From NCBI RefSeq assembly GCF_018474015.1, contig NZ_JAHCSG010000003.1, positions 1 through 64,000 of the forward strand: DNA of 64,000 bases, written 5' to 3'. Numbering within the stretch: position 1 is the stretch's first letter; every line of letters begins with the position of its first letter. Origin of the DNA: Williamsia sp. CHRR-6. GTDB lineage: Bacteria; Actinomycetota; Actinomycetes; Mycobacteriales; Mycobacteriaceae. Shown here one piece after another: positions 25,802 to 55,876 of the stretch. Both the position numbers and the translations under genes were made by a program. Below the pieces are notes generated by a model. That model made no database searches, was not told where the DNA came from, and worked only from the letters and a program-made list of their open reading frames with translations.

Positions 25802-25921
25802 TTAGCGCCCAACCGACGGGGTTTAGCGCCCACTCGACGGGGATTAGCGCCCAACCGACGGGGATTAGCGCCCAACCGACGGGGTTTAGCGCCCAACCGA
25901 CGGGGATTAGCGCCCACTCGA
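25802..25921. repeat. 21-bp tandem array A (six units)
   Basis: Six copies of GCCCA(A/C)(C/T)CGACG start at 25807, 25828, 25849, 25870, 25891 and 25912, exactly 21 bp apart, separated by GGG(T/A)TTAGC-type spacers. It lies between the convergent pip remnant and the 25933 gene. It shares its core with arrays B and D. Confidence 0.9.
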
Positions 25922-25932
25922 TGATGCCGTCG

Positions 25933-26481
25933 TCAGGGCAGCATCGCGTCCACCGCGTTCGACGCGATCGTCAGCAGGGACAGTCCGCCGGTGCCAAACG
26001 CTGCGGCGACAGTCAGCGCCACCAGCAGTTGTTCACGCGAGGGCACCGGAGGGTCGAACGTACGGTGTCCCAACCGAACCGGGGGCGACCAGATGAGCTC
26101 GACGGTCCCGTCGCCGTGGCGGGTGAGTTCGGCGAACACGTTGTGCGCGACGTCGAGGGTCGACAATCGGAACTCGCAGCAGACGTCGTCTCGTGGCGAG
26201 AGATCCAGGGCGACACCGTCGACCTCGATGTCGACGCGATAGGACCGTTTCGTGAACCGGGCGCGCCGCGGCCGGACCGTCACCTTGGCACCGGGCAGGT
26301 CGATTTCGACCGCCTCGGGATCGCGAGTCCCCAGCGGCGTCCGCTCGTGGGTCACTTCTCCACGGCGCCGGAGTGTCACACGGCACGCCGGTTCGTCGAC
26401 ACTGACGGCCTCGACCACGCCGTCTCCGCTGCGCAGTACAACATCGCCGAACAGGTCGGTGTCGAGTGTCTGCTCGGGCAT
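25933..26481 (-). CDS. conserved hypothetical actinobacterial protein
   Basis: A 182-residue protein, probably soluble with a hydrophobic C-terminal helix (LLVALTVAAAFGTGGLSLL). The middle contains alternating charged and beta-like segments (EIDLPGAKVTVRPRRARF, then KRSYRVDIEVDGVALDL and CCEFRLSTLD). I do not recognise a named family. It is encoded 3 bp downstream of the FBP-domain gene on the same strand, so the two are likely cotranscribed. Confidence 0.7.
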   Translation of the reverse strand: MPEQTLDTDLFGDVVLRSGDGVVEAVSVDEPACRVTLRRRGEVTHERTPLGTRDPEAVEIDLPGAKVTVRPRRARFTKRSYRVDIEVDGVALDLSPRDDVCCEFRLSTLDVAHNVFAELTRHGDGTVELIWSPPVRLGHRTFDPPVPSREQLLVALTVAAAFGTGGLSLLTIASNAVDAMLP

Positions 26482-26484
26482 GGC

Positions 26485-26976
26485 TCAGTCCGATACGCGC
26501 GCGAGAAACGCAGCCACGTTTGCCCGCACGCGGTCGATTTTCGACCCGACGTCGAGGTCTTCGCGGTACTGCCTGCCCAGCGCCGGCGTCTTCTCACCGC
26601 GGGCGTAGAGGGAGCAGTCGAGGTCGGTGCAGATGTAGGTGCCGACGGTGTTGCCGTTGCGACCGGCCGCCCCCGGCTTACGCGCGGTCATCAGCGACAC
26701 CCCACCGGATGGATGGGTGGTCAGACAGATCTTGCACATCTGGGCTTTGCGGGTGCCTCCAGTCTCATAGCGCAGGGCCACCCCGATCAGCTGATCGTCC
26801 GAACCCGGCGCGACCAGATACGCCCGACCGGCATACGTCGGGTCGTTCCACCCGAAGAAGTCCAGGTCGTCCCACCGCTGGTCGGCGAGGTCGCGCGGCA
26901 CGGTGATCCGCTTCACCTCACCCTGAGTGCAATTGACGAAGGACGACCGGATCTGGGTCTCGGTCAACGGCAACAT
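26485..26976 (-). CDS. FBP domain protein (elongation factor G-binding, FusB-like)
   Basis: A 163-residue protein with the FBP layout. An N-terminal helical segment (MLPLTETQIRSSFVNCTQGE) is followed by a C-terminal treble-clef zinc finger whose ligands appear as CKIC (about 88-91) and CTDLDC (about 126-131). FusB-type proteins bind EF-G and help it leave stalled ribosomes, giving fusidic acid tolerance. Actinobacterial homologues probably have a housekeeping or stress role. Confidence 0.8.
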   Translation of the reverse strand: MLPLTETQIRSSFVNCTQGEVKRITVPRDLADQRWDDLDFFGWNDPTYAGRAYLVAPGSDDQLIGVALRYETGGTRKAQMCKICLTTHPSGGVSLMTARKPGAAGRNGNTVGTYICTDLDCSLYARGEKTPALGRQYREDLDVGSKIDRVRANVAAFLARVSD

Positions 26977-27054
26977 GAGGTTTCCATCGTTCGCAGGGCG
27001 GGGGACGCCCCAGGCTAGGGCGGCCCGCCGGTCACGGGCAACCGAAATATGGGC

Positions 27055-27097
27055 GAGGCCACCGGTCGACGATCGGGGGACGTCGGCCGGTGGCCTC
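27055..27097. terminator. long inverted repeat, probable bidirectional terminator
   Basis: GAGGCCACCGG (27055-27065) pairs perfectly with CCGGTGGCCTC (27087-27097) around a 21-nt loop. It lies between the end of the GT39 gene and the start of the FBP gene, both on the minus strand. No T-run is seen. It most likely ends the GT39 transcript. Confidence 0.55.
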
Positions 27098-27138
27098 AGG
27101 TGAGCCGATCTCTCGGCTCGGTCGGTGGGGCAGGCGGG

Positions 27139-29241
27139 CTAGGTCACGGGTGCGGTCAGGTCGTAGAGCGTCACCGACCCGACGGTGATCGCCGAGTAGT
27201 TCGCCTGTACCCACTCGCTGATAGCCGTTGCCGTGCTCTGCGCGTTCATCCCGCCGCCCAGGCGTCCACCACCGATGAAGTAGTGGATCTTGCCCTCGCG
27301 CACGTACTTCTGGAACTGCGCCAGCGTGGGCGAAGGATCGCTGCCGTTGAAGCCACCGATCGGCATGACCGGCTTCTGCGTGGCCAGCTGATAACCCGAG
27401 GCCTCGTTGGACCCGACGGCCGCAGCCACCCAGGTGTAGGAACCGGAGTTCCTCTCCAACAACGACACCATCTCGGCGGTGGGTCGCGACCCCATCAACA
27501 GGTTGCCGCCCGGACCGCCAGCGGTGAAACCACGTTGGTTCTGAACGGGTGTGCCCGCCGCGCCAGGAATGCCCTGCCCAGGACCCTGGCCCGGCACTGC
27601 ACCACCGGGTCCGAATCCGTTCTGGCCGGGACCGACGCCCGGCCCGAGGCGGGGACCGAACGCGCCGCGACGCAGACCACCGGGGCCACCGAAGCCACCG
27701 CCGTTGACCTGCGGGCCCGCGGTGATGATCGATCCCTGCTTGGAGGTATGCAGGGTATCGACGACATAGGCTGTGGGACCGGCTAATCCGGCGATGATCG
27801 CAACCGCCGCGGCCACACCGGTGACCGGGCCGGTGCGCCGAACGCCGGGCACGAGCAGCCCCACCGCAGCGATCACGGCGCCGACCACCACCACCCACCG
27901 CAGCCACGGCACGAAGTCCGGTGAACGGTTGAGCAGCAGATAGGCCATCACACCGGTGGTCACCGACGCCGCGGCGAGCACCGCCCGCACCCAGAGCAGC
28001 TCACGCTGCCTCCAACACACCACCCCACCTGCTGCGAGCAATCCTGCGATCGCAGGCGCCAGGGCAATCGTGTAGTAGGAGTGAAAGATTCCCGACATGT
28101 AGCTGAACACTGCGGCGGTGGTCAGCAGCCACACTCCCATCACGACGATCAGCGCGCGGATCGGCGAGGTACGCGGCGCCCGCCAGGTCAGAACCACCGC
28201 CGCCACGCCGAGCAGCAACGCGGTGGGGATCAGCCAGGCGATCTGACCGCCCTGCTCCGGCTGGAACATCCGGAAGAATCCGGTCTCCCCCCACATACCG
28301 CCGCGCCCGCCGGGCCGTCCGGGCCCGCCGACCGCTCCCCGGCTGCTGAGGAACTCAGCGAAGGCGCCTGCGCGCGGACCGCCTCCGGTGCTTCCGGTCT
28401 CGTTGCCCGTCAGCCGGCCGAAGCCGTTGTAGCCCAACGTCAGTTCCAGAATCGAGTTGTGTTGGGAGCCACCGATGTATGGCCGCGAGTCTTTGGGCCA
28501 CAGCGTGACCGCCAACACCCACCAGCCGGCGCTGACGATCAATGCACCCAATGCCGCAAACAGGTGACCCATCCGTTTGATCCAGGTGTGCTGCCCGAAC
28601 GCGAGGTAGGCCACCGCCAATGGCGGAATGACCAGGAACACCTGCAGTTGTTTGGTGAGGAACCCGAACCCGACGAACATGCCGGTCAGCAGCATCCAGC
28701 GAATTCGGCCGTCCTCGATGCCGCGCATCGTGGCCCACACGGCAGCAATCATCAACAGCACCAACAGTGCGTCGGGGTTGTTGAACCGGAACATCAACGC
28801 CGCCACGGGCGTCAACGCCAGCACCGCTCCGGCCAGCAGTCCGGCCTGCCAGCCGACCTGCCGCTTGATGACGAGATAAAGCAACGCCACCGAGGCCACA
28901 CCCATCAGGACCTGCGGCACCAGGATGGACCACGAGTTGAGCCCGAAGATGCGAATCGCAATGCTGGGCAACCACAACGACATCGGCGGCTTGTCGACGG
29001 TGATGGAGTTCGCGGCGTCCGAGGATCCGAAGAACCACGCCTTCCACGACACCGAACCCGCCTGCATGGCCGCCGAGTAGAACGAGTTGGCGTAGCCGTT
29101 GATGCTCAGGTTCCACAGGTACAGCGCGGCGGTGACACCCAGCAGGGCACCGAGACCCCACCGTTGCGGGTGGGCGATGCGGTGGCGCACCGGTGGCGCA
29201 GTGACGGCATCACTGGGTGGGGTGTCGAGCAGCGAGGTCAT
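27139..29241 (-). CDS. GT39/ArnT-like polytopic mannosyltransferase
   Basis: A 700-residue membrane glycosyltransferase of the PMT/ArnT (GT39) type, using a polyprenyl-phosphate sugar. It has about 12 hydrophobic helices and the extracytoplasmic loop motif VDKPPMSLWLPS (about 81-92) with catalytic Asp and Lys. The C-terminal 190 residues form an outside domain preceded by a glycine/proline-rich stretch (about 515-575). It overlaps the GT2-GtrA gene by 4 bp. The partner probably makes or flips the lipid-linked donor, and this enzyme transfers it to the cell envelope. Confidence 0.88.
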   Translation of the reverse strand: MTSLLDTPPSDAVTAPPVRHRIAHPQRWGLGALLGVTAALYLWNLSINGYANSFYSAAMQAGSVSWKAWFFGSSDAANSITVDKPPMSLWLPSIAIRIFGLNSWSILVPQVLMGVASVALLYLVIKRQVGWQAGLLAGAVLALTPVAALMFRFNNPDALLVLLMIAAVWATMRGIEDGRIRWMLLTGMFVGFGFLTKQLQVFLVIPPLAVAYLAFGQHTWIKRMGHLFAALGALIVSAGWWVLAVTLWPKDSRPYIGGSQHNSILELTLGYNGFGRLTGNETGSTGGGPRAGAFAEFLSSRGAVGGPGRPGGRGGMWGETGFFRMFQPEQGGQIAWLIPTALLLGVAAVVLTWRAPRTSPIRALIVVMGVWLLTTAAVFSYMSGIFHSYYTIALAPAIAGLLAAGGVVCWRQRELLWVRAVLAAASVTTGVMAYLLLNRSPDFVPWLRWVVVVGAVIAAVGLLVPGVRRTGPVTGVAAAVAIIAGLAGPTAYVVDTLHTSKQGSIITAGPQVNGGGFGGPGGLRRGAFGPRLGPGVGPGQNGFGPGGAVPGQGPGQGIPGAAGTPVQNQRGFTAGGPGGNLLMGSRPTAEMVSLLERNSGSYTWVAAAVGSNEASGYQLATQKPVMPIGGFNGSDPSPTLAQFQKYVREGKIHYFIGGGRLGGGMNAQSTATAISEWVQANYSAITVGSVTLYDLTAPVT

Positions 29242-30533
29242 GCGAAGGCCCCCTGGGAATCGGTGTCATGAGAACGGAAAACCCATCGCAGCGCGATGAA
29301 TCGGGTGAGGGTGGCCACCAGGTTGGCCAGGATCAGCACCAGCAGCTCGATATGCCTGGAGGTCTGCGGCGCCCATTCGTGCAGTGCCCACAGCGATCCA
29401 GCGGTCAGCGCCCAGCCGAACACGAACACCCCGATCCCCTGCAGGTGGTGGCGTGCCGCACCCGCACGACCGCGCACCCCGAAGGTGAAGGCGCGGTTGG
29501 CCGCGGTGTTGCCCACCGCGGTGATCAGCAGGGCCGCGAAGTTGGCTGCCTGCGCCCCCACCATCGGATGTGCCAGCAGGTAGAGCGCCGCGAAGGCGAT
29601 GGTGGACACCACACCGATGGCCGCGAACCGCACCAGCTGGCCCACCATTCCGCGCGGCACACCGCTCACCGTCGGGTCGGGTAATCGCCTGCGGCCCAGG
29701 CTCGCTCGCAGCTGCGCGACCGGCAGCTCGCCCTCGGCCAACGCTCGACCCACCCGCCAGCACCCCTTGATGTCCTCGATCGCGGTGTGCACGATGTCGA
29801 CCTTGCTGTTGGGGTCGTCCACCCAATCCACCGGCACCTCGGCGATCCGCAGCCCGATCCGCTCGGCCAACACCAGCAGCTCGGTGTCGAAGAACCAGCC
29901 GGTGTCGTGCACATGCGGCAGCAACGCCCGCGCCACATCGGCACGGATCGCCTTGAACCCACACTGGGCGTCGGAGAACTTCGCACCCATCGCAGCGCGC
30001 AGGATGAGGTTGTAACTGCGCGAGATGAATTCGCGTTTGGCACCTCGTACCACCCGCGCCGACCGGTTCAGCCGTGACCCGATGGCCACGTCCGAATGAC
30101 CGGAGAGCAGCGGAGCGACCAACGGCAGCAACGCATTCAGATCGGTCGACAGATCTACATCGCAGTAGGCGACCACGGCTGCATCACTGTGCATCCAGGT
30201 GGCGTTCAATGCGCGACCGCGACCCTTCTCGTCCAGGTGCACCACCCGCACACCGCTGATCGTCTGCGCCAACTCGATGGCCACCGCCAGCGTCGAGTCG
30301 GTACTGGCGTTGTCTGCGATGGTGATCCGCGCCGAATACGGCACCCGCGTGCGCACATGCTCGGCCAGCCGTTCGATGCAATCAGCCAGATCGGACTGTT
30401 CGTTGAACACCGGCACCACCACATCGAGCTGCGGGTGAGCCGGAGTCGGGTCGATGACCACCGTCATCTGCGGGGCGGCGGTCGGATCCGGTGACGTCGG
30501 TTTCCCCGACCGGTCGATCGTGTCTGCTGTCAT
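29238..30533 (-). CDS. bifunctional GT2 glycosyltransferase / GtrA flippase-like protein
   Basis: A 431-residue fusion. Residues about 30-260 form a dolichol-phosphate-mannose-synthase-like GT2 domain, with VVPVFNEQSDLADCIERL at its start and YCDVDLSTD (the DXD region). Residues about 290-425 are a four-helix GtrA domain (VRFAAIGVVSTIAFAALYL). It should make polyprenyl-phosphate hexose and move it across the membrane for the GT39 enzyme encoded directly downstream, with which it overlaps (ATGA). It lies near phoPR and HIT on the same strand. Confidence 0.9.
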   Translation of the reverse strand: MTADTIDRSGKPTSPDPTAAPQMTVVIDPTPAHPQLDVVVPVFNEQSDLADCIERLAEHVRTRVPYSARITIADNASTDSTLAVAIELAQTISGVRVVHLDEKGRGRALNATWMHSDAAVVAYCDVDLSTDLNALLPLVAPLLSGHSDVAIGSRLNRSARVVRGAKREFISRSYNLILRAAMGAKFSDAQCGFKAIRADVARALLPHVHDTGWFFDTELLVLAERIGLRIAEVPVDWVDDPNSKVDIVHTAIEDIKGCWRVGRALAEGELPVAQLRASLGRRRLPDPTVSGVPRGMVGQLVRFAAIGVVSTIAFAALYLLAHPMVGAQAANFAALLITAVGNTAANRAFTFGVRGRAGAARHHLQGIGVFVFGWALTAGSLWALHEWAPQTSRHIELLVLILANLVATLTRFIALRWVFRSHDTDSQGAFA

Positions 30534-30604
30534 GACCCAGACTCTGCTGGGCCAAGCTGCCGCGATTCTGCGGCGACGCTGTCAGCTTCCTGTGAGGGCC
30601 ACGA

Positions 30605-31030
30605 TCAGTCGGCTACGTGCGCTTCATGGCCGGCTTCGCGTAGCGCAGCGCGGATCCGCGCGGCGGCGTCGTCGAGGGCAGCCGGATCGGGGTTCTTGTC
30701 GGCCAGCGCCAGGTCGAATGTCTGCAACGAGTGCGCCGGGAACACATGGACGTGCAGGTGCGGAACCTCCAGGCCGGCGATCAGCAGACCCATCCGGGGT
30801 GCGTCGAACGCCGTGCGAGTGGCCTGACCGACCGTCTGCGCGACCGAGATCACCTGCGCGAACAGCTCCGGATCGACCTGCTCCCAGTGGTCCACCTCCG
30901 CGCGCGGCACCACCAGCACGTGACCGGGCGTGACGGGGTTGATGGTGAGGAAGGCGACCACCGTGTCATCGGTCCACACGAACCGTCCCGGGAGGTCGCC
31001 GTTGATGATCATGCTGAACACAGATGCCAT
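30605..31030 (-). CDS. HIT family protein
   Basis: A 141-residue histidine triad nucleotide hydrolase or transferase. The triad is HLHVHVFP (about 92-99), and the N-terminal part [18 protein letters not shown] is typical. Substrates are usually AMP-conjugates. It lies 25 bp downstream of phoR, the same neighbour as the HIT gene beside phoPR in M. tuberculosis, which supports a conserved backbone location. Confidence 0.92.
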
Positions 31031-31054
31031 GCCACCGATGGTAGGCGCCGCCGA

Positions 31055-33201: not shown

Positions 33202-33300
33202 GGTGCCTACCTTCCGTGAACTCACTTGGCCTGCCCTGGGAGTTTCCTGGCAGCTGGCTGTGAACCCCTGCCAGGGTCTCATGGTCGATGTCCGAGCAGG

Positions 33301-35018: not shown

Positions 35019-35030
35019 GAGAGGGTGCGG

Positions 35031-35441: not shown

Positions 35442-35499
35442 CGTAGGCAGTCGTCGAGCGCGGCTTGCCAGGGTGCAGACCTCAGGTGCAGACATGAAG

Positions 35500-35534
35500 A
35501 ACCCCGCCGGCCCGGGGGAGGGAGCGACGGGGTT
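35500..35534 (-). terminator. hairpin terminator downstream of csbD
   Basis: AACCCCG (35500-35506) pairs with CGGGGTT (35528-35534). Read on the minus strand the stem is followed by CTTC. It separates the CsbD gene from RidA. Confidence 0.5.
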
Positions 35535-35622: not shown

Positions 35623-35877
35623 TCACTTGGTGATGTCGTTGACCTTGTCGGCCACGGCGCTCTTGGCGTCCTCGACGGCACCCTTGGCGTCGGCGACGGC
35701 GTCCTCGGCCGACTCCTTCACGTTCTGCGCGGCGTCGTTGACCTTGGCCTCGGCCTGGTCCTTCTTGCCTTCGTTCTCCAGGTCCTTGTCGTCGACCAGG
35801 TTCCCGACGAACTCTTTGGCCTCGCCGATCGCGCCCTCGACGGCGTTCTTGGCCTTGTCGATGAAGTCGTTGCCCAT
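35623..35877 (-). CDS. CsbD family protein
   Basis: An 84-residue charged, alanine-rich, helix-forming protein. It shows GNDFIDKAKNAVEGAIGEAK at the start, FVGNLVDDKDLENEGKKDQA in the middle, and repeated amphipathic heptads to the end. CsbD-like proteins are general-stress proteins, often high in stationary phase; their molecular role is unknown. The ATG at 35877 has a GAGG-like site upstream. It is monocistronic, with a hairpin downstream. Confidence 0.85.
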   Translation of the reverse strand: MGNDFIDKAKNAVEGAIGEAKEFVGNLVDDKDLENEGKKDQAEAKVNDAAQNVKESAEDAVADAKGAVEDAKSAVADKVNDITK

Positions 35878-40242: not shown

Positions 40243-40660
40243 GCCACCCGATCTCTTGTGAACCCGCTACTGTCATCGGTCGCGAACACCTCGACCTCAC
40301 CACGACGGTAGCGGGATCCACCGACACTGGTCCCGCACGCGAGCCGGCCGCACCTGGTGGAACTGCCGGGGCGCATGCGGTCGGCGACCGACGCAAACGC
40401 GCCCGTCGAGTGGGCACAAAACCGCGTCGATTGGGCAGAAAACGTGCGTCGAGTGGGCAGAAACGTGCCCCGAGTGGGCGGAGAATCTGGATCTCGTCGG
40501 TGTACTTGGTGACGGTGGTGGGGGTCCAGCTCCCTCGCGGCACAGTTGCCAAGCACACGGTGAGCGTGCTGGATGGGACGGGTCGCCGACGCCACCAATC
40601 TGAGGCTCGCGCTGCTGCACATGTTGGTGGCGGTGCGCGCGCCAGCACGGAGACCACGAG
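40243..40660. other. intergenic region between the subtilase gene and tRNA-Thr
   Basis: About 418 bp without a convincing gene. It holds 21-bp array B (40404-40479), the upstream region of the subtilase gene, and the 3' flank of the tRNA. No other feature is seen. Confidence 0.5.
40404..40479. repeat. 21-bp tandem array B (four units)
   Basis: Cores CGTCGAGTGGGC, CGTCGATTGGGC, CGTCGAGTGGGC and CCCCGAGTGGGC start at 40404, 40425, 40447 and 40468, 21 or 22 bp apart, separated by A-rich spacers such as AGAAAACGTG. The reverse complement is the same GCCCANYCGACG core as arrays A and D. Confidence 0.88.
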
Positions 40661-40732
40661 AGCCCCCTGTCAGGATTGAACTGACGACCTTTCGCTTACA
40701 AGGCGAGTGCTCTACCACTGAGCTAAGGAGGC
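40661..40732 (-). tRNA. tRNA-Thr (anticodon TGT)
   Basis: The minus strand folds as a tRNA. Acceptor GCCTCCT pairs with AGGGGGC, with the D arm TAGCTCAGTGGTAGAGC and anticodon loop CTTGTAA (anticodon TGT). The T arm is GTCAGTTCAATCCTGAC. CCA is not encoded. Confidence 0.93.
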
Positions 40733-42575: not shown

Positions 42576-45134
42576 GTGAGCGCCCGAGACCTCGATCCTG
42601 ATCTGCGCCGCGCGTTGAAGACCATCGCGCGCATCCCCCGCCTTCTCGTCGCCTCGGACTACGACGGCTGCATGGCACCCATCGTGTCGCGACCGCAAGA
42701 CGCCAAACCGAACCCCGAGTCGGTGCGCGCGATGCGGGCCCTGGCCGACCTCGACTCGACCACCGCTGCGGTCATCTCCGGGCGCGCACTGCGCGACCTG
42801 GCGACCCTGTCGCGACTGCCCGCCGAGGTCCACCTCGTCGGCAGTCACGGCAGCGAGTTCGACATCGGGTTCGTCCACGAGATCAGCGCTGAGGCCACCG
42901 CCCTGTTGGGCCGCATCATCGCCGAACTGCAGTCGGTGTCCCAGCGGTATCCGGGCACCACAGTGGAGTCCAAGCCCGCCAGCGCTGCTCTGCACACCCG
43001 CAACGCTTCGGCCGACGATGCGGTCGCCGCGTTGGAGACGGTCCGTGCGGGCGCTGCCACCTGGGACGGGGTGCAGGTCACCGAGGGCAAGTCCGTCATC
43101 GAGTTGGCCGTCATCCAGACCGACAAGGGTCATGCGCTCGACATCCTGCGCCATCAGGCAGGTGCTGGCGCGGCAATCTTCTTCGGCGACGACGTGACCG
43201 ACGAGAAGGCGTTTCGACGTCTGCACGGACCCGACTTCGGGGTGAAGGTGGGCGACGGCGAGAGCCTGGCCACCTACCGCGTCGCCGACACCGACCAGGT
43301 GGCCACCTCGTTGGCGTTTCTCTACGAGGAGCGCCGGGCGTGGTTGCGCGGGGAGGGGGCGGTTCCCATCGAGCGGCTGACCATGTTGGCCACCCCGCGC
43401 ACCATCTCCCTGGTCACCCCCGATGCGCGCGTGTGTTGGATGTGTCATCCCGAACCCGATTCAGCGGCCCTGTTCGCCAGCCTGCTGGGCACCATCGATG
43501 CCGGCGAGTTCGGCGTCCGCCCGTTCATCGACGGCGGCGAGAAGCCGCCGCTACCCCAGAGCCAGCGATACGTGGACGGCACCATGACCGTCGAAACGCG
43601 TTGGGCTGGTTTGGAAGTGCTCGATTACATGCCTCACGACGTGCCGGCGGGTCGCACGGACCTGACGCGCGTGGTCACCGGCGACATCCCGGCGCTCATC
43701 GAGTTCTGTCCGCGCCCAGAGTTCGGTCAGACCAGTGTGGGCATCGAGGTCGTCGACGACGGCCTGCGAGTCACCGGCACCAACGACCCCATCGTGTTGC
43801 GGGCACCGGGCATCAGCTGGCAGATCGACACCGACCGCTTCTATCAACGCGCCACCGCCGTGGTCGATCCCAGGCAAGGGCCGATCGTGCTGGAATTGCG
43901 TTGCGGCACCAGCGACATCGCGTCATCAGAGGTCTCAGAGCAGCAGCGACGCAGCGAATCCGAGTCGTACTGGCGGGATTGGGCGGCCGGACTCACCCTG
44001 CCCGCACTGAAGCCCGAGCTGATGAAGCGCTCAGCGCTGACGCTGAAGGGGTTGGTACACGCCGACTCTGGGTCGATCATGGCCGCAGCCACCACCTCGC
44101 TGCCTGAGGACATCGGCGGCGTACGCAACTGGGACTACCGATACTGCTGGCTGCGTGATGCCGCGCTCACCGCGTCGGCGTTGGTGTCGGTGGGGTCGCT
44201 GACCGAGGCGCAGGATTATCTGGCCTGGCTGCATCGGGTGTTGGAGACCGTCAGCGGCCCCGAATGGCTGCACCCGCTGTACACGCTGGCCGGAGGGTCG
44301 CTGCCGCCGGAGGCCATCATCGACTCGCTGCCCGGGTACGCCGGTTCACGACCGGTGCGGGTGGGCAACGCCGCCAACCAGCAGGTACAGCTCGACGTGT
44401 TCGGGCCGATCGTCGACCTCATCGCCCAACTCGCCGATGCCCGCGCCGCTGCAGGCATCGCCGATGCACTGCCCGACGCCGACTGGGACCTCGTGGTCAA
44501 GATGGTCTACGCGGTGGAACGTCGCTGGTTCGAACCCGATCACGGCATCTGGGAGATCCGCAACAACCCGCGCCACCACGTGTACTCGAAGGTGATGTGT
44601 TGGCTGACCGCCGACCGCGCGGTCACCCTCGGCGAGAAGTTCGGCCGCCAGGTGGAGCCGGGCTGGTCGGTGCTGCGCGACGTCATCGCCGCCCAGGTGA
44701 TCGAGAAGGGCTGGAACGATGAGGTGTCGTCCTACACCTCGGCGTATGAGGGCACTGACCTCGACGCGGCCACCCTGCACATCGGATTGTCAGGGTTGAT
44801 CGATCCGGCCGATCCCCGGTTCGCGCAGACCGTCAAGGCCACCGAGTCCGAATTGCGCAGCGGCGCAACGGTGTACCGCTACTTCAGCGACGACGGCCTA
44901 CCCGGCGAAGAGGGCGGATTCCACCTGTGCGCGGCATGGCTGGTGGAGGCCTACCTGTTGATCGGTCGCCGCACCGACGCCGAAGCCCTGTTCGCGCAGC
45001 TGGTGAAGGCGGCAGGTCCTACCGGGCTGCTGTCTGAGGAGTACGACCCGGTGGCCGAACGTGCGCTGGGCAACCACCCCCAGGCCTACAGCCATCTCGG
45101 ATTGCTGCGCTGCGCCACCCTGTTGGCGAACTGA
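42576..45134 (+). CDS. otsB: fused trehalose-6-phosphate phosphatase (OtsB) and GH15 glucoamylase/trehalase-like protein
   Basis: An 852-residue two-domain protein. Residues about 1-260 are a HAD phosphatase with nucleophile motif SDYDGCMAP (27-35), SGR, and FFGDDVTDEKAF near 205; the usual DGT is DGC here. Residues about 265-850 form a GH15 domain with NWDYRYCWLRDAALTASAL and LHPLYTLAG segments, GYAGSRPVRVGNAANQQVQ and the C-terminal barrel. GH15 members in mycobacteria include trehalase. The same polypeptide may therefore form trehalose and hydrolyse it or a related glucoside. It follows otsA directly. Confidence 0.9.
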   Translation: MSARDLDPDLRRALKTIARIPRLLVASDYDGCMAPIVSRPQDAKPNPESVRAMRALADLDSTTAAVISGRALRDLATLSRLPAEVHLVGSHGSEFDIGFVHEISAEATALLGRIIAELQSVSQRYPGTTVESKPASAALHTRNASADDAVAALETVRAGAATWDGVQVTEGKSVIELAVIQTDKGHALDILRHQAGAGAAIFFGDDVTDEKAFRRLHGPDFGVKVGDGESLATYRVADTDQVATSLAFLYEERRAWLRGEGAVPIERLTMLATPRTISLVTPDARVCWMCHPEPDSAALFASLLGTIDAGEFGVRPFIDGGEKPPLPQSQRYVDGTMTVETRWAGLEVLDYMPHDVPAGRTDLTRVVTGDIPALIEFCPRPEFGQTSVGIEVVDDGLRVTGTNDPIVLRAPGISWQIDTDRFYQRATAVVDPRQGPIVLELRCGTSDIASSEVSEQQRRSESESYWRDWAAGLTLPALKPELMKRSALTLKGLVHADSGSIMAAATTSLPEDIGGVRNWDYRYCWLRDAALTASALVSVGSLTEAQDYLAWLHRVLETVSGPEWLHPLYTLAGGSLPPEAIIDSLPGYAGSRPVRVGNAANQQVQLDVFGPIVDLIAQLADARAAAGIADALPDADWDLVVKMVYAVERRWFEPDHGIWEIRNNPRHHVYSKVMCWLTADRAVTLGEKFGRQVEPGWSVLRDVIAAQVIEKGWNDEVSSYTSAYEGTDLDAATLHIGLSGLIDPADPRFAQTVKATESELRSGATVYRYFSDDGLPGEEGGFHLCAAWLVEAYLLIGRRTDAEALFAQLVKAAGPTGLLSEEYDPVAERALGNHPQAYSHLGLLRCATLLAN

Positions 45135-45148: not shown

Positions 45149-45237
45149 GTTTTCGGCACGGTCGACGCCCCATTTCGGCACGGTCGACGCCCTATTTCGG
45201 CACGGTCGACGCCCTATTTCGGCACGGTCGACGCCTA
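45149..45237. repeat. 22-bp tandem array C (four units)
   Basis: Four copies of GGCACGGTCGACG start at 45155, 45177, 45199 and 45221, 22 bp apart, separated by CCCTATTTC-type spacers. It fills the space between the convergent otsB-GH15 and transglutaminase genes and overlaps the end of the latter's stop region. The GTCGACG part matches arrays A, B and D. Confidence 0.9.
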
Positions 45238-46047
45238 GCGGATGGGGACCGGCTCGATGCCGTCGTCAGTGGGCAGAGCCCCGTCGACGGTGGCCATCAC
45301 CTGGTAGCTGTTGAGGTTCACCGCGCCACCATGGTTGTCGAGGAAGGCGGTGTCGGCAGCATCGCGCCCGGTTGCGATGCGCACCAATGCTTGTCGCGGT
45401 GCCAGTCCGGTGGGATCGATCACCAGCCAGCGGTCGTCGATCAGCGCCTCGGCCACCGCATGAAAGTCCATCGGCACGCATCCGGGCGCATAGACAGCCA
45501 CCAGCCGCGCCGGGATGTTCAACGCGCGCAACAGCGCCACCGCCAGGTGCGCGAAATCGCGGCACACCCCCGCCCCGGCCAGCAGAGTGTCGGCCGCCCC
45601 GTCGATGGGATCACTGGCACCGGGCAGGTAGTTCAATCTCCGCGAGACGAACCGGGCCACCTCGCCCAACAATCGTTCGGGCGCCGCGGACAGATCGAAT
45701 TCCGCTGTGACATAGCCGAAGAACTTGTCGGCCTCGGCGTACCGGCTGGGCCGCAGGTACAACGACCGATCGGTGATCTCCACCGTGACCGGATCGGATG
45801 GGGCCAGGATCGAAGCCGAGTAGTCCACCGCAACGTTGCCGACGGGCGCCTGCAACCTGTGGATCCGTGTGCCACAGGCCCCGATGATCTCCTCGGGCTG
45901 CACGGTCGAACCGTTGACCGACACCACCAGCGACTCGGTCACATGTGACCCCGGCGCGTACGCCACGGTCACCTGTAGTTCGAGTTCGGTGGGGGCGTCG
46001 ATTCTGATGTCCATCATCGACGAGACGTCACGTTTGATCGTTGTCAT
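45235..46047 (-). CDS. transglutaminase-like family protein
   Basis: A 270-residue protein with a papain-like triad: Cys in AGAGVCRDFAHL, His in MDFHAVAEA, Asp in LVIDPTGLAPRQ. The N-terminal beta domain is the transglutaminase_N type (MDIRIDAPTELELQ and related strands). The start is the ATG at 46047; a further ATG lies at MMDIRID. Family members are cysteine proteases or amidases of unknown substrate, common in Mycobacteriales. Confidence 0.85.
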   Translation of the reverse strand: MTTIKRDVSSMMDIRIDAPTELELQVTVAYAPGSHVTESLVVSVNGSTVQPEEIIGACGTRIHRLQAPVGNVAVDYSASILAPSDPVTVEITDRSLYLRPSRYAEADKFFGYVTAEFDLSAAPERLLGEVARFVSRRLNYLPGASDPIDGAADTLLAGAGVCRDFAHLAVALLRALNIPARLVAVYAPGCVPMDFHAVAEALIDDRWLVIDPTGLAPRQALVRIATGRDAADTAFLDNHGGAVNLNSYQVMATVDGALPTDDGIEPVPIR

Positions 46048-46853: not shown

Positions 46854-46857
46854 GTTC

Positions 46858-49271: not shown

Positions 49272-49333
49272 GGTGGGTGTCCTTCGCTTTTCGGTGTTCG
49301 CCGGTGGTGGGTGTAGTGCGGTGGCAGCGTCGG

Positions 49334-50194
49334 TCAGCCTTTGACCGCGCCGGTGGTCAGACCCTTGATCATCTGCCGCTGCAGGAACAGGAACACGATG
49401 AGCATGGGTAGTGCGGTGAGGATGGTGCCTGCCATCACCTGACCCCAGTTGTTGCCATTCTCGTTGTTCTGCAACAGAGTCAGGCCGATGGGCAGCGGCG
49501 CCACCGACGAGTTGTCCGACATCAGGAACGGCCACAGGTATTCGTTCCACTCGTTGACCAGGGTGATCATCGCGAACGCCACCATCGTGGGGATGGAGAT
49601 GGGCAGGATGACCCGCAGCAGCAGCTTCCAGTGCCCGGCGCCGTCCATGCGTGCGGCCTCGATGATCTCGCGGGGCAGCGACAGGAAGTGGTTGCGCAGC
49701 AGGAAGGTTCCGAACGCCACCCCGGCCAGCGGCACGATGATGCCCAGGAATGTGTTGCGGAAGTTGACCATCAACGCGTAGTTGGAGATGACAGTGATCT
49801 GGTTGGGCACCATCAGCGCCGAGATGATGACGAAGAAGATGACCTTCTTGAACGGGAAACGCAGGAACACCAGCGCGTAGGCGGTGGTGATGCCCAGGAC
49901 GAACTTGATGCCCCCGGTGGCGAAGGTGATGATCAGCGAGTTGCGCAGATAGGTCCAGAACTGGATGCGGTCGTTGACGTCGGAGTAGTTGCGCGGGTGC
50001 AGCTTCGGCGGCCACCAGGTGGCGGGCGAGGTGTACACGTCGGGCTGGGTCTTGAGGGAGGTGATGATCATGAAGTACACGGGGATACCGATGAACAGCA
50101 GCACCGCGATCATCGCCACATATCCCCCGGCGGTGCCGAGCGGGTTGCGACCTGCGGTCCGCCCGGCTGCGCGCCGCTCGTCGGTGATCGTCAT
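49334..50194 (-). CDS. ugpE: ABC transporter permease UgpE-like
   Basis: A 286-residue inner-membrane permease with about six helices and the EAA loop EIIEAARMDGAGHWKLLLRV (about 185-204). Its ATG at 50194 overlaps the end of the first permease gene (ATGA). It forms the channel with the UgpA-like subunit. The frame is open further upstream, but similarity begins at this ATG. Confidence 0.9.
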   Translation of the reverse strand: MTITDERRAAGRTAGRNPLGTAGGYVAMIAVLLFIGIPVYFMIITSLKTQPDVYTSPATWWPPKLHPRNYSDVNDRIQFWTYLRNSLIITFATGGIKFVLGITTAYALVFLRFPFKKVIFFVIISALMVPNQITVISNYALMVNFRNTFLGIIVPLAGVAFGTFLLRNHFLSLPREIIEAARMDGAGHWKLLLRVILPISIPTMVAFAMITLVNEWNEYLWPFLMSDNSSVAPLPIGLTLLQNNENGNNWGQVMAGTILTALPMLIVFLFLQRQMIKGLTTGAVKG

Positions 50195-51120
50195 GACCGC
50201 TCCCGATCCATCAGGTAGACCTGGATCGCGGTGACGATCAGCAGGGCGAGGAACATGACCGTGGCGATGGTGGCCCCGTATCCGGCGCGCGAAGCCTGGA
50301 AGGTCTGGTCGTACACCTCGTAGATCATCGTGGTGGTGCCGTTGTTCGGGCCGCCGCGGGTCATCACGTTGATGATGTCGAAGACCTGAAGAGTGTTGAG
50401 CAGCACCGTGATCGACAGGAAATAGGTGGCCGGTCGCAACTGGGGCAGGGTGACCCGGGTCAGCTTCGTCCATGCCCGGGTGCCGTCGATGGCGGCCGCC
50501 TCGTCCAGATCACGATTGGTGGCCTGCAGCGCAGCCAGGTAGATCACGAAGGTGTAGCCCAGGTTCTTCCAGATGTAGGTGAAGGTGACCATGAACAGCG
50601 CCCAGTTCGGATCCTGATAGAAATCAGGGCTTTTCATACCGATCGAGTGCAGCATCGACTCGACCAGACCGAAGTTGGGGTGGAACACGAACTGGAAGGC
50701 CACCCCGATGGCGGCACCGGAGAGCACGAACGGCGCGAACACCACCGTCCGGACGATGTTGCGGCCCTTGAGAGCTCGGTCCAGCAACAGGGCCAGCGCC
50801 AACCCCAGCACCATGGAGATGACCACCGCGGCGACGGTGAACACCACTGTGTTGGTGACCACCGTGGCGGTGGTGGGGTCAGAGAACCACTCGCGGTAGT
50901 TCGACAACCCGATCCACTTGGCGGCGTCGCGGCCACCGATCTCCCACTGGGTGAACGACAGTCGGATGTTGTCGAGCAGCGGGCGGTAGGTGAACACCGT
51001 CAACAGCACCAGGTTGGGCAGCACGAACGCCAGGAACAAGACGTTCTCGCGCGCGGTCAGGTGCGCACGGATCCCACGCCTCGACGTGGGAGTCACCAAC
51101 TCGGTGGAACCGGCCATCAC
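50191..51120 (-). CDS. ugpA: ABC transporter permease UgpA-like
   Basis: A 309-residue permease with six helices and the EAA loop LDEAAAIDGTRAWTKLTRV (about 215-233). It is the first gene of ugpAEBC. Starts at 51120 or 51117 are possible. The 118 bp upstream (51121-51238) precede the L,D-transpeptidase gene end and should carry the operon promoter; no clear operator was seen. Confidence 0.9.
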   Translation of the reverse strand: MMAGSTELVTPTSRRGIRAHLTARENVLFLAFVLPNLVLLTVFTYRPLLDNIRLSFTQWEIGGRDAAKWIGLSNYREWFSDPTTATVVTNTVVFTVAAVVISMVLGLALALLLDRALKGRNIVRTVVFAPFVLSGAAIGVAFQFVFHPNFGLVESMLHSIGMKSPDFYQDPNWALFMVTFTYIWKNLGYTFVIYLAALQATNRDLDEAAAIDGTRAWTKLTRVTLPQLRPATYFLSITVLLNTLQVFDIINVMTRGGPNNGTTTMIYEVYDQTFQASRAGYGATIATVMFLALLIVTAIQVYLMDRERS

Positions 51121-51238
51121 CGGCGAAGCGTGCGCGGACAGGGTTACCGATTGGTGAACGCTGCCCGCTGATCAGATAGACATCTCCCGACCAGTGATCG
51201 ACCGATAACGCCCACCCCCGCGGGCCTCATCGCCGCGA

Positions 51239-52549
51239 TCAGCCGGTCGGCTGACGCCGCGCCGACGGCGACGGGGTGGTGGACGTGCCCGAGAGCTGCG
51301 GAGCGTCCGACGGGGTGGCCGGCGCCGAGGACGTCGGCGCCTCCCCGTCGAGCGCCGACATCGACTTCCATTGGGCGTAGGAGAACGTCCAGTCGTAGAT
51401 GTCACCGTCGGCCTGCGACAACTGCAGGCGAGTGTTGGTCACCTCGACCGGATCGCCGTAGATCGCGGTCTCGTAGTAGCGCTGCGCGTTCTCCAGCGAC
51501 AGGTTGATGCACCCGTTGGTCACGTTCGACGAGCCCTGGACCCCGGTGGTCTGCGGGTTGGCGTGGATGAATTCGCCGTTGTTGGAGATGCGCACCGCCC
51601 ACCGCTCGCGCACGTTGAAGTAGCCGGCGGCAGGGTTGGACATGTAGAAGTCCTCGTGCTTCTCGCTCACCACATGGATACCCGAGCGGGTCACGTTGCG
51701 GTCGAGGTCGCCTGAGCCGTAACTGCACGGCAACGACATCAGCAGCGATCCGTCGCGGATCACGTCGATCTTGAACGAGGTGGCGTCGGCCTTCACGATC
51801 TGCGACCGGCCGATGGTGAAATCGCTGGTCACATCGGCCGCGCCGTAGACGCCGTCACCGTGGTCGAGCCCGTAGAGCTTGCCGACCATGGAAAACTTGG
51901 TGCCCGGCGCGAAATACTCCGCCGGCCGCCAGTGCACGCGCGAACCGTTGTCCTCGGGCAACCAGCCCCAGCTGCCCTCGGTGGGTGGCGTGGTGGTGAC
52001 GGTCAGCGCCCGCTCGACAGCCTTCTTGTCGGTCACCTCGGCGTCGAACTTGAGGATCAGGGGCGCCGCGATACCCACTTCCTGGCCGTCGGCGATGTTG
52101 ATGACGACGTTGATCTGGTCTTTGGGGGTGATGGTGGTGAAGGTGCCCTGCACGGGGACGGTCTTGCCGTCGTCGCCGACTGCGGTACCCGACCAGGTGT
52201 AGGCCACGCCGTATCCCAGGGGCTCGGCGATGCGGTAGGTGGTGCCGTCGGCGGCCAGCGCCCCCTTGACGACGGTGCCGCGCGCGTTGGTCAGCTTCAC
52301 GTCGGCGTTGAGCTTGCCCTTGCTGACCGACACGGCGAAACCGGCGGTGGGGCTGGGCTGCGCGCCGTCGGCCAGAGCCGGGGTGAACGTGATCTCGGCG
52401 CTCGGCTTCGGCGGTGGTGTCGATTTCTTGGGCTCTGACGAGGTACCGCCGCTGCTACATGCTGCGGCGGTCACGCCGAGCGCGCCGGCGGCCAGGGTGG
52501 CCAACGCGCCCCGCCGCGTCAGCTGAGCCTTGGCATGACTGTCCTCCAT
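51239..52549 (-). CDS. L,D-transpeptidase lipoprotein (LprQ/LdtMt5-like)
   Basis: A 436-residue exported lipoprotein with a twin-arginine-like signal ([19 protein letters not shown]) and lipobox AAACSS. Two Ig-like domains (about 50-260) precede a YkuD domain (about 265-395), which makes 3-3 crosslinks in peptidoglycan. The catalytic Cys is in VTNGCINLS, where most family members have SHGC. A C-terminal Ser/Pro-rich tail follows. It is next to murB, as lprQ is in M. tuberculosis. Confidence 0.88.
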
Positions 52550-52632
52550 GGCACCTGAGGCTACCCGGACATCCGATCACCCTGCCCTCGGTTGCCGACC
52601 GAGGGCACCGAGACGACCTCACCGAGACGACC

Positions 52633-53730
52633 TCACAGGGAGCAGCCCACCATCACCGGTTCAGGCTCCAGCTGGACCCCGAACGCGGCCCGCACCCCGT
52701 CGCGCACCTCACGGGCCAGCGCCAGCACATCCTCGGTGCGGGCGGTGCCGCGATTGGTCACCGCCAGAGAATGCTTGGTGGACAACCGGACCGGCGCATG
52801 GGCTCCGGGGTGTCCGCGCCCGAACCCGGCCTTCTCTATCAACCAGCCGGCCGAGAGCTTCACCCCGTCGCGGGCGGGATGGCGGGGTACCTCCACCGCG
52901 CCCAACCGCGCGGCCACCGCAGCCAGGATGTGAGGGAGATCATCATCGGCCACAACGGGATTGGTGAAGAACGAGCCGACACTCCAGGTGTCGTGATCGA
53001 TCGGGTCGAGCACCATCCCCTTGCTGCGACGCAGCGCCAGAACCTGCTCACGCGCCTGGGCCGCGTCGACGCGCCCGTTCGGCTCCACACCCAAGGCAAG
53101 TGCCAGTTCGCGATAGCGGATGGGGGCGCTGGTGGCGTCGGTGGTGCACCGCAGCGCCACCGCCACCACCACCCGATCGTCGCGACCCTTGAGCACACTG
53201 CTGCGATAGCTCAGCTCCAGCGCCGCGGGGTCCACCCACCGCACCGAGTGATCGCGGCGGTCCAACAGTTGCACCCCGTCGAGGACGTCGGCGATCTCCA
53301 CTCCGTAGGCACCCACGTTCTGCACCGGGGTGGCTCCGACCGCGCCGGGAATACCGGACAGACACTCCAATCCACCGAGTCCACGGGCGACGGTCTGGGC
53401 CACCAACTCGTCCCACACCATCCCCGCGCCGACCTCCACGCGCACGGTGCCAGATGCCCGAGCAACACCCGATACGTCAGAAGCGTTGTCCCCGAACGAG
53501 ATCTCGGAGTTGGCGAGCACCACCACGGTGCCGGCGAACCCATCGTCACCGACCACCAGGTTCGACCCGCCGCCCACCAGCAGCACCGGCTCACCGACGT
53601 CGTCGAGCCGGGTGATGGTGTCGATCAACTCAGCGCTGGTGCGCACCCGCAGCACCGCGTGGGCAGGTCCGCCGACACGCAGCGTGGTCAGCTCGGCCAA
53701 CGTCGGGGCGGGACGCGAACGGGGATGCAC
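52633..53730 (-). CDS. murB: UDP-N-acetylmuramate dehydrogenase
   Basis: A 365-residue FAD enzyme that reduces UDP-GlcNAc-enolpyruvate to UDP-MurNAc for peptidoglycan. It shows TLAELTTLRVGGPAHAVLR, LLVGGGSNLVVGDDGF, GLECLSGIPGAVGATPVQNV and YRSSVLKGRDD, and the C-terminal KAGFGRGHPGAHAPVRLSTK. The GTG at 53730 is the natural start although the frame is open further upstream. A DUF2505 gene is divergent 24 bp away. Confidence 0.94.
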   Translation of the reverse strand: MHPRSRPAPTLAELTTLRVGGPAHAVLRVRTSAELIDTITRLDDVGEPVLLVGGGSNLVVGDDGFAGTVVVLANSEISFGDNASDVSGVARASGTVRVEVGAGMVWDELVAQTVARGLGGLECLSGIPGAVGATPVQNVGAYGVEIADVLDGVQLLDRRDHSVRWVDPAALELSYRSSVLKGRDDRVVVAVALRCTTDATSAPIRYRELALALGVEPNGRVDAAQAREQVLALRRSKGMVLDPIDHDTWSVGSFFTNPVVADDDLPHILAAVAARLGAVEVPRHPARDGVKLSAGWLIEKAGFGRGHPGAHAPVRLSTKHSLAVTNRGTARTEDVLALAREVRDGVRAAFGVQLEPEPVMVGCSL

Positions 53731-53754
53731 CGGGCAACGGTAACGTCTCGCGTC

Positions 53755-54255
53755 ATGGCCACGAAGTTTGAGCAGTCCACCACCTGTCCCCTGTCCATGG
53801 CGCAGTACCGCCAGGCGCTCGCCGATCCCGCCTACTGGGCCGACCTCGCCAAAGGGCACGAAGACGCCCCCGGCGAGGTCGTCTCGCACACCGTCGAGGA
53901 GACCGGCGTCGCCATCGAGATGATCCAGAAGATTCCGGCCTCCCAGCTGCCGTCGGTGGTCACCGCGGTCATCTCCGGCGACCTGGTCATCAACCGCAAG
54001 ATGAGCTGGAACTACATCACCGACACCCACGTCGACGGCACCTTCGACGCCGACGTCGCCAACTCGCCCGCGAACATCACCGGCGCCCTCAGCGTCGACG
54101 GCGCCGACGAGTTGGACTTGTCGACCAACGTGGCCGTGGAGGTCAAGGTCCCCCTGATCGGCGGCAAGATCGAGAAGATGATCGCCCAAAGCCTGCAGGA
54201 GCTGGTGACCGGCGAGCGCGACCACGTCGTGAAGTGGGTCCAAGAGAAGTACTGA
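53755..54255 (+). CDS. DUF2505 domain protein (first of two)
   Basis: A 166-residue SRPBCC-like protein of the actinobacterial DUF2505 family, with CPLSMAQYRQALADPAYWAD, EMIQKIPASQLPSVVTAVIS, DVANSPANITGALSVDGADE and VEVKVPLIGGKIEKMIAQSL. The fold suggests lipid or polyketide binding. Its function is unknown. A paralogue follows 51 bp downstream on the same strand. It is next to murB, as in M. tuberculosis. Confidence 0.85.
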   Translation: MATKFEQSTTCPLSMAQYRQALADPAYWADLAKGHEDAPGEVVSHTVEETGVAIEMIQKIPASQLPSVVTAVISGDLVINRKMSWNYITDTHVDGTFDADVANSPANITGALSVDGADELDLSTNVAVEVKVPLIGGKIEKMIAQSLQELVTGERDHVVKWVQEKY

Positions 54256-54306
54256 GCGTAGGCCGCCGGGGCGGCGCTGGGATGGGTGGCAGGTAGCGTA
54301 CCGGGC

Positions 54307-54816
54307 ATGGCACGTCGTCTCAGCTACTCGGCCCGGCACGAGGTCGCCCCGGAAACGGTCTACTCCGCGCTGAAGGAACGCCAGTTCTGGGAGGACCAGA
54401 TGACGGAGTTCCGCAAGCTCACCCCGCGCTCGGACATCGAGTCGTTCACCGTCGACGACAACGGCATCGACGTGGTGCTCATCCAGACCATCCCCAAGAC
54501 CGATCTGCCGGCGATTGCTGCCGCGGTGATCAAGAAGGACCTGGTGATCACCCGCAAGGAGTTCCTCGGTCCGTTCGATGCGACCAAGACCGAGGGCACC
54601 TACAGCGCCGCCATCCCCGCCGGCCCTGGCAACCTCACCGGCGTGCAGGAGCTGCTGCCCACCGAGACCGGCTGCACCCTGCGCCGCACCTCGGAGGTCA
54701 AGGTCTTCATCCCGTTCGTCAACGGCAAGCTCGAGCAACTGGTCCTGGTGCACCTGGTGGATCTGTTCCGCGGCGAAGCGGAGTTCACCGGCGACTGGAT
54801 CAAGGCACACGGCTGA
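54307..54816 (+). CDS. DUF2505 domain protein (second of two)
   Basis: A 169-residue paralogue of the preceding gene with the same order of motifs: RHEVAPETVYSALKERQFWED, IQTIPKTDLPAIAAAVIKKD, IPAGPGNLTGVQELLPTET and VKVFIPFVNGKLEQLVLVHL. The similarity between the two copies shows an old tandem duplication. Its function is unknown. Confidence 0.85.
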   Translation: MARRLSYSARHEVAPETVYSALKERQFWEDQMTEFRKLTPRSDIESFTVDDNGIDVVLIQTIPKTDLPAIAAAVIKKDLVITRKEFLGPFDATKTEGTYSAAIPAGPGNLTGVQELLPTETGCTLRRTSEVKVFIPFVNGKLEQLVLVHLVDLFRGEAEFTGDWIKAHG

Positions 54817-54835
54817 GCCCTCAGAGGGGCGATCT

Positions 54836-55672
54836 GTGCCTGTACACGGGGTGTCCAGCACACGCGGTGGGGCAACCGCCCAGGGTGTGTCGGTCATGCC
54901 GAGTGCGACGGCCGTGCAGGGCCAGATAACCAGGGGCACAACCAATCCCAATCGTCTGCGCCGAGTGGATCGGTGGATGGCCGGGCGCGCAGAGATCGTC
55001 GAGGTGCTGGCGGCCGCACCCGACCCGCTGGCGGTCGACCTCGGCTACGGCAATCGGCCTGACACCGCCGTGGAGATGGCCGCCCGCCTGCGCGCGGTGG
55101 AACCTCGGATCTCGTTGGTGGGCTTGGAGATTGACCCGCAGCGGGTGGTCGCCGACCGCGACGGCGTGCGCTTCGGGCTGGGCGGCTTCGAATTGGCCGG
55201 TCTGCGACCACATCTGGTGCGCGCCTTCAACGTGCTACGTCAGTACGACGAGAGCGAGGTGCTCGGATCGTGGGCGCAGATGCAGGCCGCGTTGGCGCCG
55301 GGCGGACTGATCGTCGAAGGCACCTGCGACGAGATCGGCCGCCGCTGCACCTGGGTGCTGCTCGACGAACACCGGCCCCGATCGTTGACCCTGGCCTGGG
55401 CACCAGGACACACCGACCGGCCCTCCGAGCTGGCCCCGCGCCTGCCCAAGGCGCTGATCCACCACAACGTGGACGGCCGCGCGATCTTTGCACTGCTGCG
55501 CGCAGCCGATCGCTGTTGGGACTCTGCCGCGCCGTACGCGCCCTATGGGCCTCGCATCCGGTGGTTACACGCCCGCGCAGCTCTGGCCGATCTCGGGGTC
55601 CCCGTGGAACAACCCCGCCGCCGCACCCGAGACAACGTGCTGACGGTGCCGTGGGACCACGTGGCACGGTGA
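54836..55672 (+). CDS. SAM-dependent methyltransferase-like protein
   Basis: A 278-residue Rossmann protein. It has PLAVDLGYGNRPDTAVEMAARL (the SAM motif I region, with GYG in place of GxGxG), LVGLEIDPQRVV, and LAPGGLIVEGTCDEIGRRC. The start at the GTG at 54836 has AGAGGGG 6-10 bp upstream. The actinobacterial family carrying this sequence is annotated as class I SAM-dependent methyltransferase; the substrate is unknown and the acceptor region looks degenerate. Confidence 0.75.
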   Translation: MPVHGVSSTRGGATAQGVSVMPSATAVQGQITRGTTNPNRLRRVDRWMAGRAEIVEVLAAAPDPLAVDLGYGNRPDTAVEMAARLRAVEPRISLVGLEIDPQRVVADRDGVRFGLGGFELAGLRPHLVRAFNVLRQYDESEVLGSWAQMQAALAPGGLIVEGTCDEIGRRCTWVLLDEHRPRSLTLAWAPGHTDRPSELAPRLPKALIHHNVDGRAIFALLRAADRCWDSAAPYAPYGPRIRWLHARAALADLGVPVEQPRRRTRDNVLTVPWDHVAR

Positions 55673-55684
55673 TCGGCGGATACC

Positions 55685-55876
55685 TCACGGGACGTCGACT
55701 CAGCGCTGTGTCGAGTGGGTGGAACAGCGACGTCGAGTGTGCGCGGCTGTGTGCTGCCCAGCCGACGCCGGTTACCGCCCAGCCGACGCCAGTTACCGCC
55801 CAGTCGACGCCAGTTACCGCCCAGCCGACGCCAGTTACCGCCCAGTCGACGCCGGTTACCGCCCAGCCGACGCCGT
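55685..55876. repeat. 21-bp tandem array D (six units) with three diverged inverted copies upstream
   Basis: Six exact-period copies of GCCCAG(C/T)CGACG start at 55756, 55777, 55798, 55819, 55840 and 55861, separated by CC(A/G)GTTACC spacers. Upstream (55692-55745) three diverged copies of CGTCGAGTG run in the opposite orientation. It lies between the methyltransferase-like and nitrilase genes. Confidence 0.9.

Follow-up and report, generated by a model that had tools for sequence, protein, structure and literature searches.

We analysed a 64,000-nucleotide stretch of DNA from Williamsia sp. CHRR-6 (positions 1 to 64,000 of contig NZ_JAHCSG010000003.1, hereafter the window), in which a preliminary description had placed four intergenic arrays of short repeated units, A to D. 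All four are present in the sequence, and the strand given below for each of them is its sense strand, namely the strand that reads CGTCGRNTGGGC in type 1 and CGTCGACCGTGCCGAAA-N5 in type 2. Array A (type 1; 25807..25923, minus strand) comprises six cores, five exact and one with a single mismatch, with every step being 21 bp, and it starts 9 bp past the end of the minus-strand gene at 25933-26481. Array B (type 1; 40404..40479, plus strand) contains three exact cores at 40404-40458, on the strand opposite to A and with steps of 21 and 22 bp, plus one decayed core; it sits in a divergent gap along with tRNA-Thr (40660-40732, minus strand), close to this tRNA and to the point where a subtilase gene begins. 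Array C (type 2; 45151..45235, minus strand) consists of about four units of 22 bp without any type-1 core, in agreement with the earlier remark that its unit differs, and starts 1 bp past the minus-strand gene at 45235-46017, which is convergent with the gene at 42576-45134. Array D has two arms lying 13 bp apart as read from the sequence. Its right arm (type 1; 55756..55872, minus strand) carries six exact cores, all at steps of 21 bp, in a tandem gap where it is antisense to both flanking genes, and its left arm (55709..55742, plus strand) carries two decayed cores in the opposite orientation and shares the sense of the upstream gene at 54977-55672. The 21-bp recurrence in six copies at A and at D, as previously described, was thus confirmed, with one core of A being mismatched. 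The genes beside the window arrays have mutually unrelated functions, the few annotated flanks being metabolic genes, and the idea that the arrays mark a regulon was rejected on this ground. An Rfam 15 search of window positions 24000-57000 returned the tRNA as the sole match above the gathering score. Apart from the arrays, a 21-bp tandem repeat at 35647-35709 lies within a CsbD-like gene; it is a coding heptad repeat with no relation to the arrays.

The window contains 14 copies of the exact core GCCCANYCGACG, compared with a mean of 0.37 and a maximum of 3 copies in 100 shuffles, and the whole genome (G000; 3,998,357 bases in 14 contigs) contains 241, compared with 25 copies of the backward-read pattern. 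The spacing of the cores was analysed in 860,130 bases of unselected sequence, composed of 796,130 bases of contig 1 and the 64-kb window, where 93 of 98 exact cores belong to arrays. The same-strand core distances up to 90 bp were 21 (53 pairs), 42 (39), 63 (28) and 84 bp (18), and the remaining nine all fell within 1 bp of these values (ranges 20-22, 41-43, 62-63 and 83-85). Tandem Repeats Finder, which is blind to the core, reported a period of 21 bp for type 1 (22 in one row) and of 22 bp for type 2, plus doubled periods, and adjacent cores in 11 genomes chosen from the triple-core scan were 21 bp apart in 48 cases, 22 in seven, 23 in one and 42 in six. Since a unit spacing of 21-22 bp was built into the patterns of the genus-wide pair scan and the species-level triple scan, these three analyses (the chosen-genome distances within 20-23 bp) are the fair tests of the period. 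The prospect raised beforehand, that the core would occur at chance frequency and without periodicity, was therefore not borne out. As a separate observation, no type-1 array was found in positions 1-200000 of contig 1, against more than 20 in its 740-1336 kb region.

Positions 1-4 and 8-12 of the core are at least 95% conserved as a per-array average (26 own arrays and 113 from other species), a value that is partly due to construction because the pattern used to locate the cores allowed one mismatch. In the next in-register unit, which was unselected and included array ends, the corresponding conservation was 72-84% in our genome and 74-86% in the others. The spacers are variable, being GGAAA-rich in G000 and elsewhere often starting with GGTT; all 11 genomes picked from the triple-core scan showed the same core and spacing with different spacers, and those of Gordonia differ again. 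The second type, to which array C belongs, reads CGTCGACCGTGCCGAAA-N5 in the sense direction with a period of 22 bp in G000, where the 796-kb contig-1 sample contains six more such arrays; a type-2 period of 21 bp was found in three of nine genomes of the genus of a record titled Kitasatospora arboriphila. Types 1 and 2 are found in equivalent locations. One gap (sample positions 406286-406529) holds both, type 2 behind the left gene and type 1 behind the right one, and in the Kitasatospora record a NUDIX gene and a LigD primase-polymerase-like gene flank a type-1 arm together with a type-2 arm. Furthermore, a search of 73 genomes detected a third, related-looking class (CGTGCGAAC, 19-bp period in G000) in four of the eight Williamsia genomes, one of them G000, and in a single further genome of the order. 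Its arrays in G000 are located at C1:856066-856153, C1:857309-857494, C3:462053-462292 and C4:297655-297813, and at the two places where inverted copies were read they are separated by 12 bp, which preserves the 19-bp register. The same pattern also recurs every 140 bp at the start of contig 2 (C2:18-342), suggesting a longer tandem repeat at the contig end.

The arrays are tied to gene 3′ ends and are placed and oriented relative to them, which contradicts the previous statement that they are unrelated to the flanking genes. Genes in the sample were called with our own codon-usage predictor rather than taken from curated annotation, and 27 arrays of at least three cores (20 of type 1 and seven of type 2) in 22 intergenic gaps were counted, leaving aside two type-1 arrays of this size that overlap predicted open reading frames (sample 124748-124908 and 390035-390109) and four two-core arrays; loci L042 and L087 were excluded from the gene-context counts. 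The results showed that 15 of the 22 array loci lie in convergent gaps, six in tandem gaps and one in a divergent gap, while convergent gaps make up only 110 of 664 gaps overall (binomial p 1e-7 by count and 3e-8 by length). A same-sense gene lies upstream of 23 of the 27 arrays, and 17 of the 27 start no more than 30 bp from the stop codon of such a gene and read CGTCGRNTGGGC in the gene direction; in the clearest cases, TGACC is followed at once by CGTCGAGTGGGC. Between convergent genes, an array of either orientation lies behind a gene of its own sense, so that the distance is the informative measure. The median distance there was 3 bp to the stop of the sense gene versus 91 bp to the opposite gene in our genome, and 32 versus 90 bp in other species (loci not de-duplicated). 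Two other repeats were seen at gene ends on contig 1 of G000, namely a 26-bp tandem array that contains an inner palindrome (GTGTGAGTCACAC) and adjoins the end of a minus-strand gene (C1:1113591-1113690), and a 20-bp tandem repeat that copies the end of a coding sequence including its TGA stop (C1:1167241-1167304).

Two inverted arms, arranged as (CGTCGRNTGGGC-N9)n, gap, (N9-GCCCANYCGACG)n, are common. The gap between them, whose length was absent from every search pattern, was 27 bp in 18, 28 bp in three, 17 bp in four and 48 bp in two of 36 distinct inverted pairs, with single cases of 13, 16, 18, 30, 47, 52, 102, 115 and 122 bp. Hence 21 of the 36 gaps measure 27-28 bp. When orthologues were collapsed by hand, 26 gaps were left, 15 of which were 27-28 bp long (ten rows including the Kitasatospora pair were dropped, and L179, L194 and L196 were unchecked for orthology), a preference with a p value of 1.4e-12 against an even spread over 10-60 bp. 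By eye rather than by a formal test, the gap sequences are unrelated except in orthologues such as L058/L079, and one decayed core is visible within each of the three 47-48 bp gaps and within three of the 27-28 bp gaps (L041, L091, L196). A Rayleigh test of the gaps at 10.5 bp gave 6e-7; periods of 9.5-12 bp fit about equally well, and the strong result is therefore a single preferred gap length, not a measured period. The gaps of the reverse arrangement were 9, 11, 11, 11 and 12 bp, three of the five being one orthologous locus. By our own arithmetic, the core centres of inverted pairs are 29, 39 or 60 bp apart (about 10.5n minus 2.7) and those of reverse pairs 21-24 bp apart (about 21 plus 2.7), so that a single helical lattice can accommodate sites in either orientation.

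Among 121 genomes examined, paired cores were detected in all eight of Williamsia, with counts of 1 to 126 each, and in a single genome from another genus. The triple-core scan of a species-level genome collection yielded 75 stretches, including 54 from Williamsia, 17 from Gordonia, one from Terrabacter, one from Kitasatospora and two coding false positives. Outside Williamsia, paired cores are present in eight records of Gordonia and in two further records from actinobacteria. Coding heptad repeats were considered as an explanation and hold for two of the 75 stretches (Myxococcota L044 and Contendobacter L072), which were removed from later counts; the Terrabacter loci L087 and L219 overlap predicted genes and are possibly of this kind too. 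For eight of 15 triple loci of W. serinedens, a triple array was found at the orthologous place in W. deligens with both flanks similar each time, and the reverse comparison gave nine of 22. The earlier alternative that the arrays would be absent from relatives and vary at random thus failed with respect to absence, although individual positions do turn over. In samples containing no other Williamsia, G000 was the only match among 298 genomes of the order for relaxed type-1 triples and among 396 genomes of the phylum for type-2 pairs, and a wide spread by exact patterns is therefore unsupported. A locus seemingly shared across genera by W. sterculiae L083 and Gordonia L088/L109 was dropped because it rests on one flank, with the linking gene apparently more than 1 kb from the L083 array; L088 and L109, both from Gordonia, have both flanks in common. 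Viral contigs, searched with type-1 pairs only, contained no paired type-1 cores, and blastn found no phage match for array B and no plasmid match for arrays B and C. Searches of viral contigs, of phages and plasmids and for a Y1 transposase thus lent no support to a mobile origin.

The core, the period, the gap rule, the position, the orientation preference and the partial conservation between species ask for a factor that reads double-stranded DNA, favours one helical face, distinguishes orientation and acts at gene ends. We tentatively propose, at somewhat less than an even chance, that the arrays are multi-site operator strips for a putative sequence-specific DNA-binding protein at gene 3′ ends, most likely acting as a roadblock or insulator. 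The conserved core and helical phasing of an operator array are both present, and phased sites of a DNA-binding protein, which the preliminary description had suggested, appear from the 21-bp lattice and the 27-bp arm gap to be the best reading. Every 12-bp core, whether it has the sense CGTCGRNTGGGC or its type-2 counterpart CGTCGACCGTGC, would be one protein site, and the 21-bp period would put successive proteins on the same helix face for side-by-side, presumably cooperative binding. A single array may serve the gene upstream of it, and two inverted arms between convergent genes could serve both of them on one helical lattice. The protein-covered strip would most likely block or insulate the transcription leaving the gene, possibly ending it.

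Several observations weigh against this proposal. A binding protein was not found, and no co-occurrence search was made. Array-bearing convergent gene ends are not short of hairpins (17 versus 102 ends, p 0.97); with hairpin strength alike in both groups, the arrays find no support as substitutes for hairpin terminators. The orientation bias in tandem gaps is weak, with three sense and four antisense arrays in our genome and 21 and 13 in other species, and in the window only A and C obey the gene-end rule, B and the right arm of D being exceptions. The 27-bp rule depends mainly on three Williamsia genomes, those of W. deligens, W. serinedens and an uncultured member of the genus, with the gaps of G000 (13, 16 and 122 bp) and Gordonia (18, 30 and 52 bp) lying outside it, and the 19-bp period of the third class implies that two full turns are not a rule for all such arrays. 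In addition, a syntenic gap was available in the G000 sample for six of 86 other-species loci, and the array was kept in only two of them, which represent one locus.

The strongest rival is a role in supercoiling or chromosome organisation similar to that of the bacterial interspersed mosaic elements (BIMEs) of E. coli, in which the arrays would lie where positive supercoils gather, between convergent genes, and bind gyrase or a nucleoid protein without stopping RNA polymerase. We regard this as unlikely. Gyrase is bound by BIMEs, and the enrichment in convergent gaps and the helical phasing would both suit such a role, but a supercoil sink has no need of oriented placement right after stop codons, and an asymmetric core with such strong conservation is not typical of gyrase. 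Also in its favour, BIMEs and repetitive extragenic palindromic (REP) elements are described as binding several proteins (PMC2817692, in part). The arrays might instead be selfish or neutral repeats, either products of tandem duplication or mobile words that persist at gene ends because they are least harmful there. The patchy distribution, the range of 1 to 126 paired cores among congeners, the turnover of positions and the depletion of arrays over positions 1-200000 of contig 1 are consistent with this idea; however, it leaves unexplained why one core recurs in independent arrays with different spacers on a fixed lattice and why arrays are retained at orthologous places, and the lack of a Y1 transposase in G000 and the negative viral, phage and plasmid searches also speak against it, so that we consider it distinctly unlikely.

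It is very unlikely that the arrays act as RNA, with transcribed copies folding into stems that end or stabilise messages. Strong stems are indeed predicted at the two-armed loci L106 (z -4.65) and L080 (z -8.99), array B folds moderately better than shuffles (z -2.4), and the position at 3′ ends would be suitable, but on the strands tested A, C and D did not fold significantly better than shuffles, and a gap that stays at 27 bp while its letters change is unexpected for a hairpin loop. Only one type-1 arm was detected in 16 of our 18 type-1 loci (decayed and type-2 arms uncounted), which argues that RNA structure is not the shared property, and for this reason a roadblock or insulator formed by a cooperatively bound putative protein is preferred. 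Replication-fork barriers or other replication-linked sites are extremely unlikely. The phased and oriented arrangement is similar to the general layout of fork-barrier arrays, but the forward and reverse core counts in G000 are equal (119 and 122), and orientations are mixed within a contig with negative GC skew in 15 of 16 sampled 50-kb bins. On these two results, a replication-linked orientation was rejected. One genome, G006, has all-plus cores among the matches listed, while both orientations occur at other loci bearing the label W. deligens.

Transcription ending between convergent genes in GC-rich actinobacteria is poorly understood. The arrays are a countable, oriented and recurring gene-end element with a sharp geometric rule, and they could lead to a new gene-end or chromosome-organising protein. 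A literature search with limited cover of subscription journals revealed no published account of them, and literature matches to the letters of the core were judged unrelated from titles and the beginnings of abstracts.

Among known systems, REP elements are the nearest kind. Like the arrays, the GTAG and CGTC superfamilies of REPs are extragenic, occur in many copies near the 3′ ends of convergent or co-oriented genes and often form inverted dimers (PMC3733652, in part), and the sense core of the arrays also begins with CGTC, by chance or not. The location agrees well, with arrays near gene 3′ ends and favouring such gaps. In contrast, REPs are palindromes with stems and loops that are rarely arranged head to tail, according to the portion of PMC3733652 used here, whereas the arrays consist of asymmetric 12-bp cores as direct repeats on a 21-bp lattice; a palindromic stem-loop unit finds no support in A, C and D, which do not fold significantly better than shuffles on the strands tested, although array B does (z -2.4), and CGTCGRNTGGGC is non-palindromic by inspection. 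The same portion reports CGTC REPs from five phyla, Actinobacteria not being among them. The RAYT (Y1) transposase PF01797 had no match in G000 and was present in five of 14 control genomes; since CGTC REPs are described there as having no Y1 association (PMC3733652), this absence bears on GTAG REPs only. A 2025 survey of REPs covers three Actinomycetota genomes, and its main text, as far as available, names neither Gordonia nor Williamsia (PMC12306157). The BIMEs of E. coli resemble the arrays as mosaic clusters with regular spacing and both orientations at gene ends (in part from PMC2817692), but they are built from alternating palindromic REPs and the arrays from same-orientation arms. The paired uptake-signal terminators of Haemophilus are likewise formed by a genome-wide word in dyad pairs at gene 3′ ends, but act as RNA stem-loops without a direct-repeat lattice; other 3′-end motif pairs are described in the same source (PMC5217627, in part).

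Iterons share direct repeats at about two helical turns, but the arrays form dozens of gene-end loci rather than one origin; they are spread over the sampled contig and the window (the origin region lying outside the inspected DNA) and are not confined to an array at an origin beside a Rep gene. The iteron alternative in the preliminary description is thus disfavoured, also by the equal strand counts, and its exclusion of CRISPR stands, because the units measure 21-22 bp with repeated spacers of 9-10 bp instead of exact repeats of about 30 bp with unique spacers (cas genes were not searched for). Intrinsic terminators do not match either, as A, C and D have neither a significant fold nor a T run at their ends. 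The eukaryotic roadblock terminator arrays of the TTF-I/Reb1 type are oriented multi-site DNA-protein strips downstream of genes, like the arrays as proposed here. To our knowledge, no bacterial protein of this kind has been described, and we infer the working mode of the arrays. It is possible, if doubtful, that some actinobacteria mark gene ends, chiefly convergent ones, with oriented and helically phased site arrays for a dedicated DNA-binding protein. Such a system would be the bacterial equivalent of insulators or roadblock terminator arrays, with two or more site types that can replace each other and a constant geometry between inverted arms.

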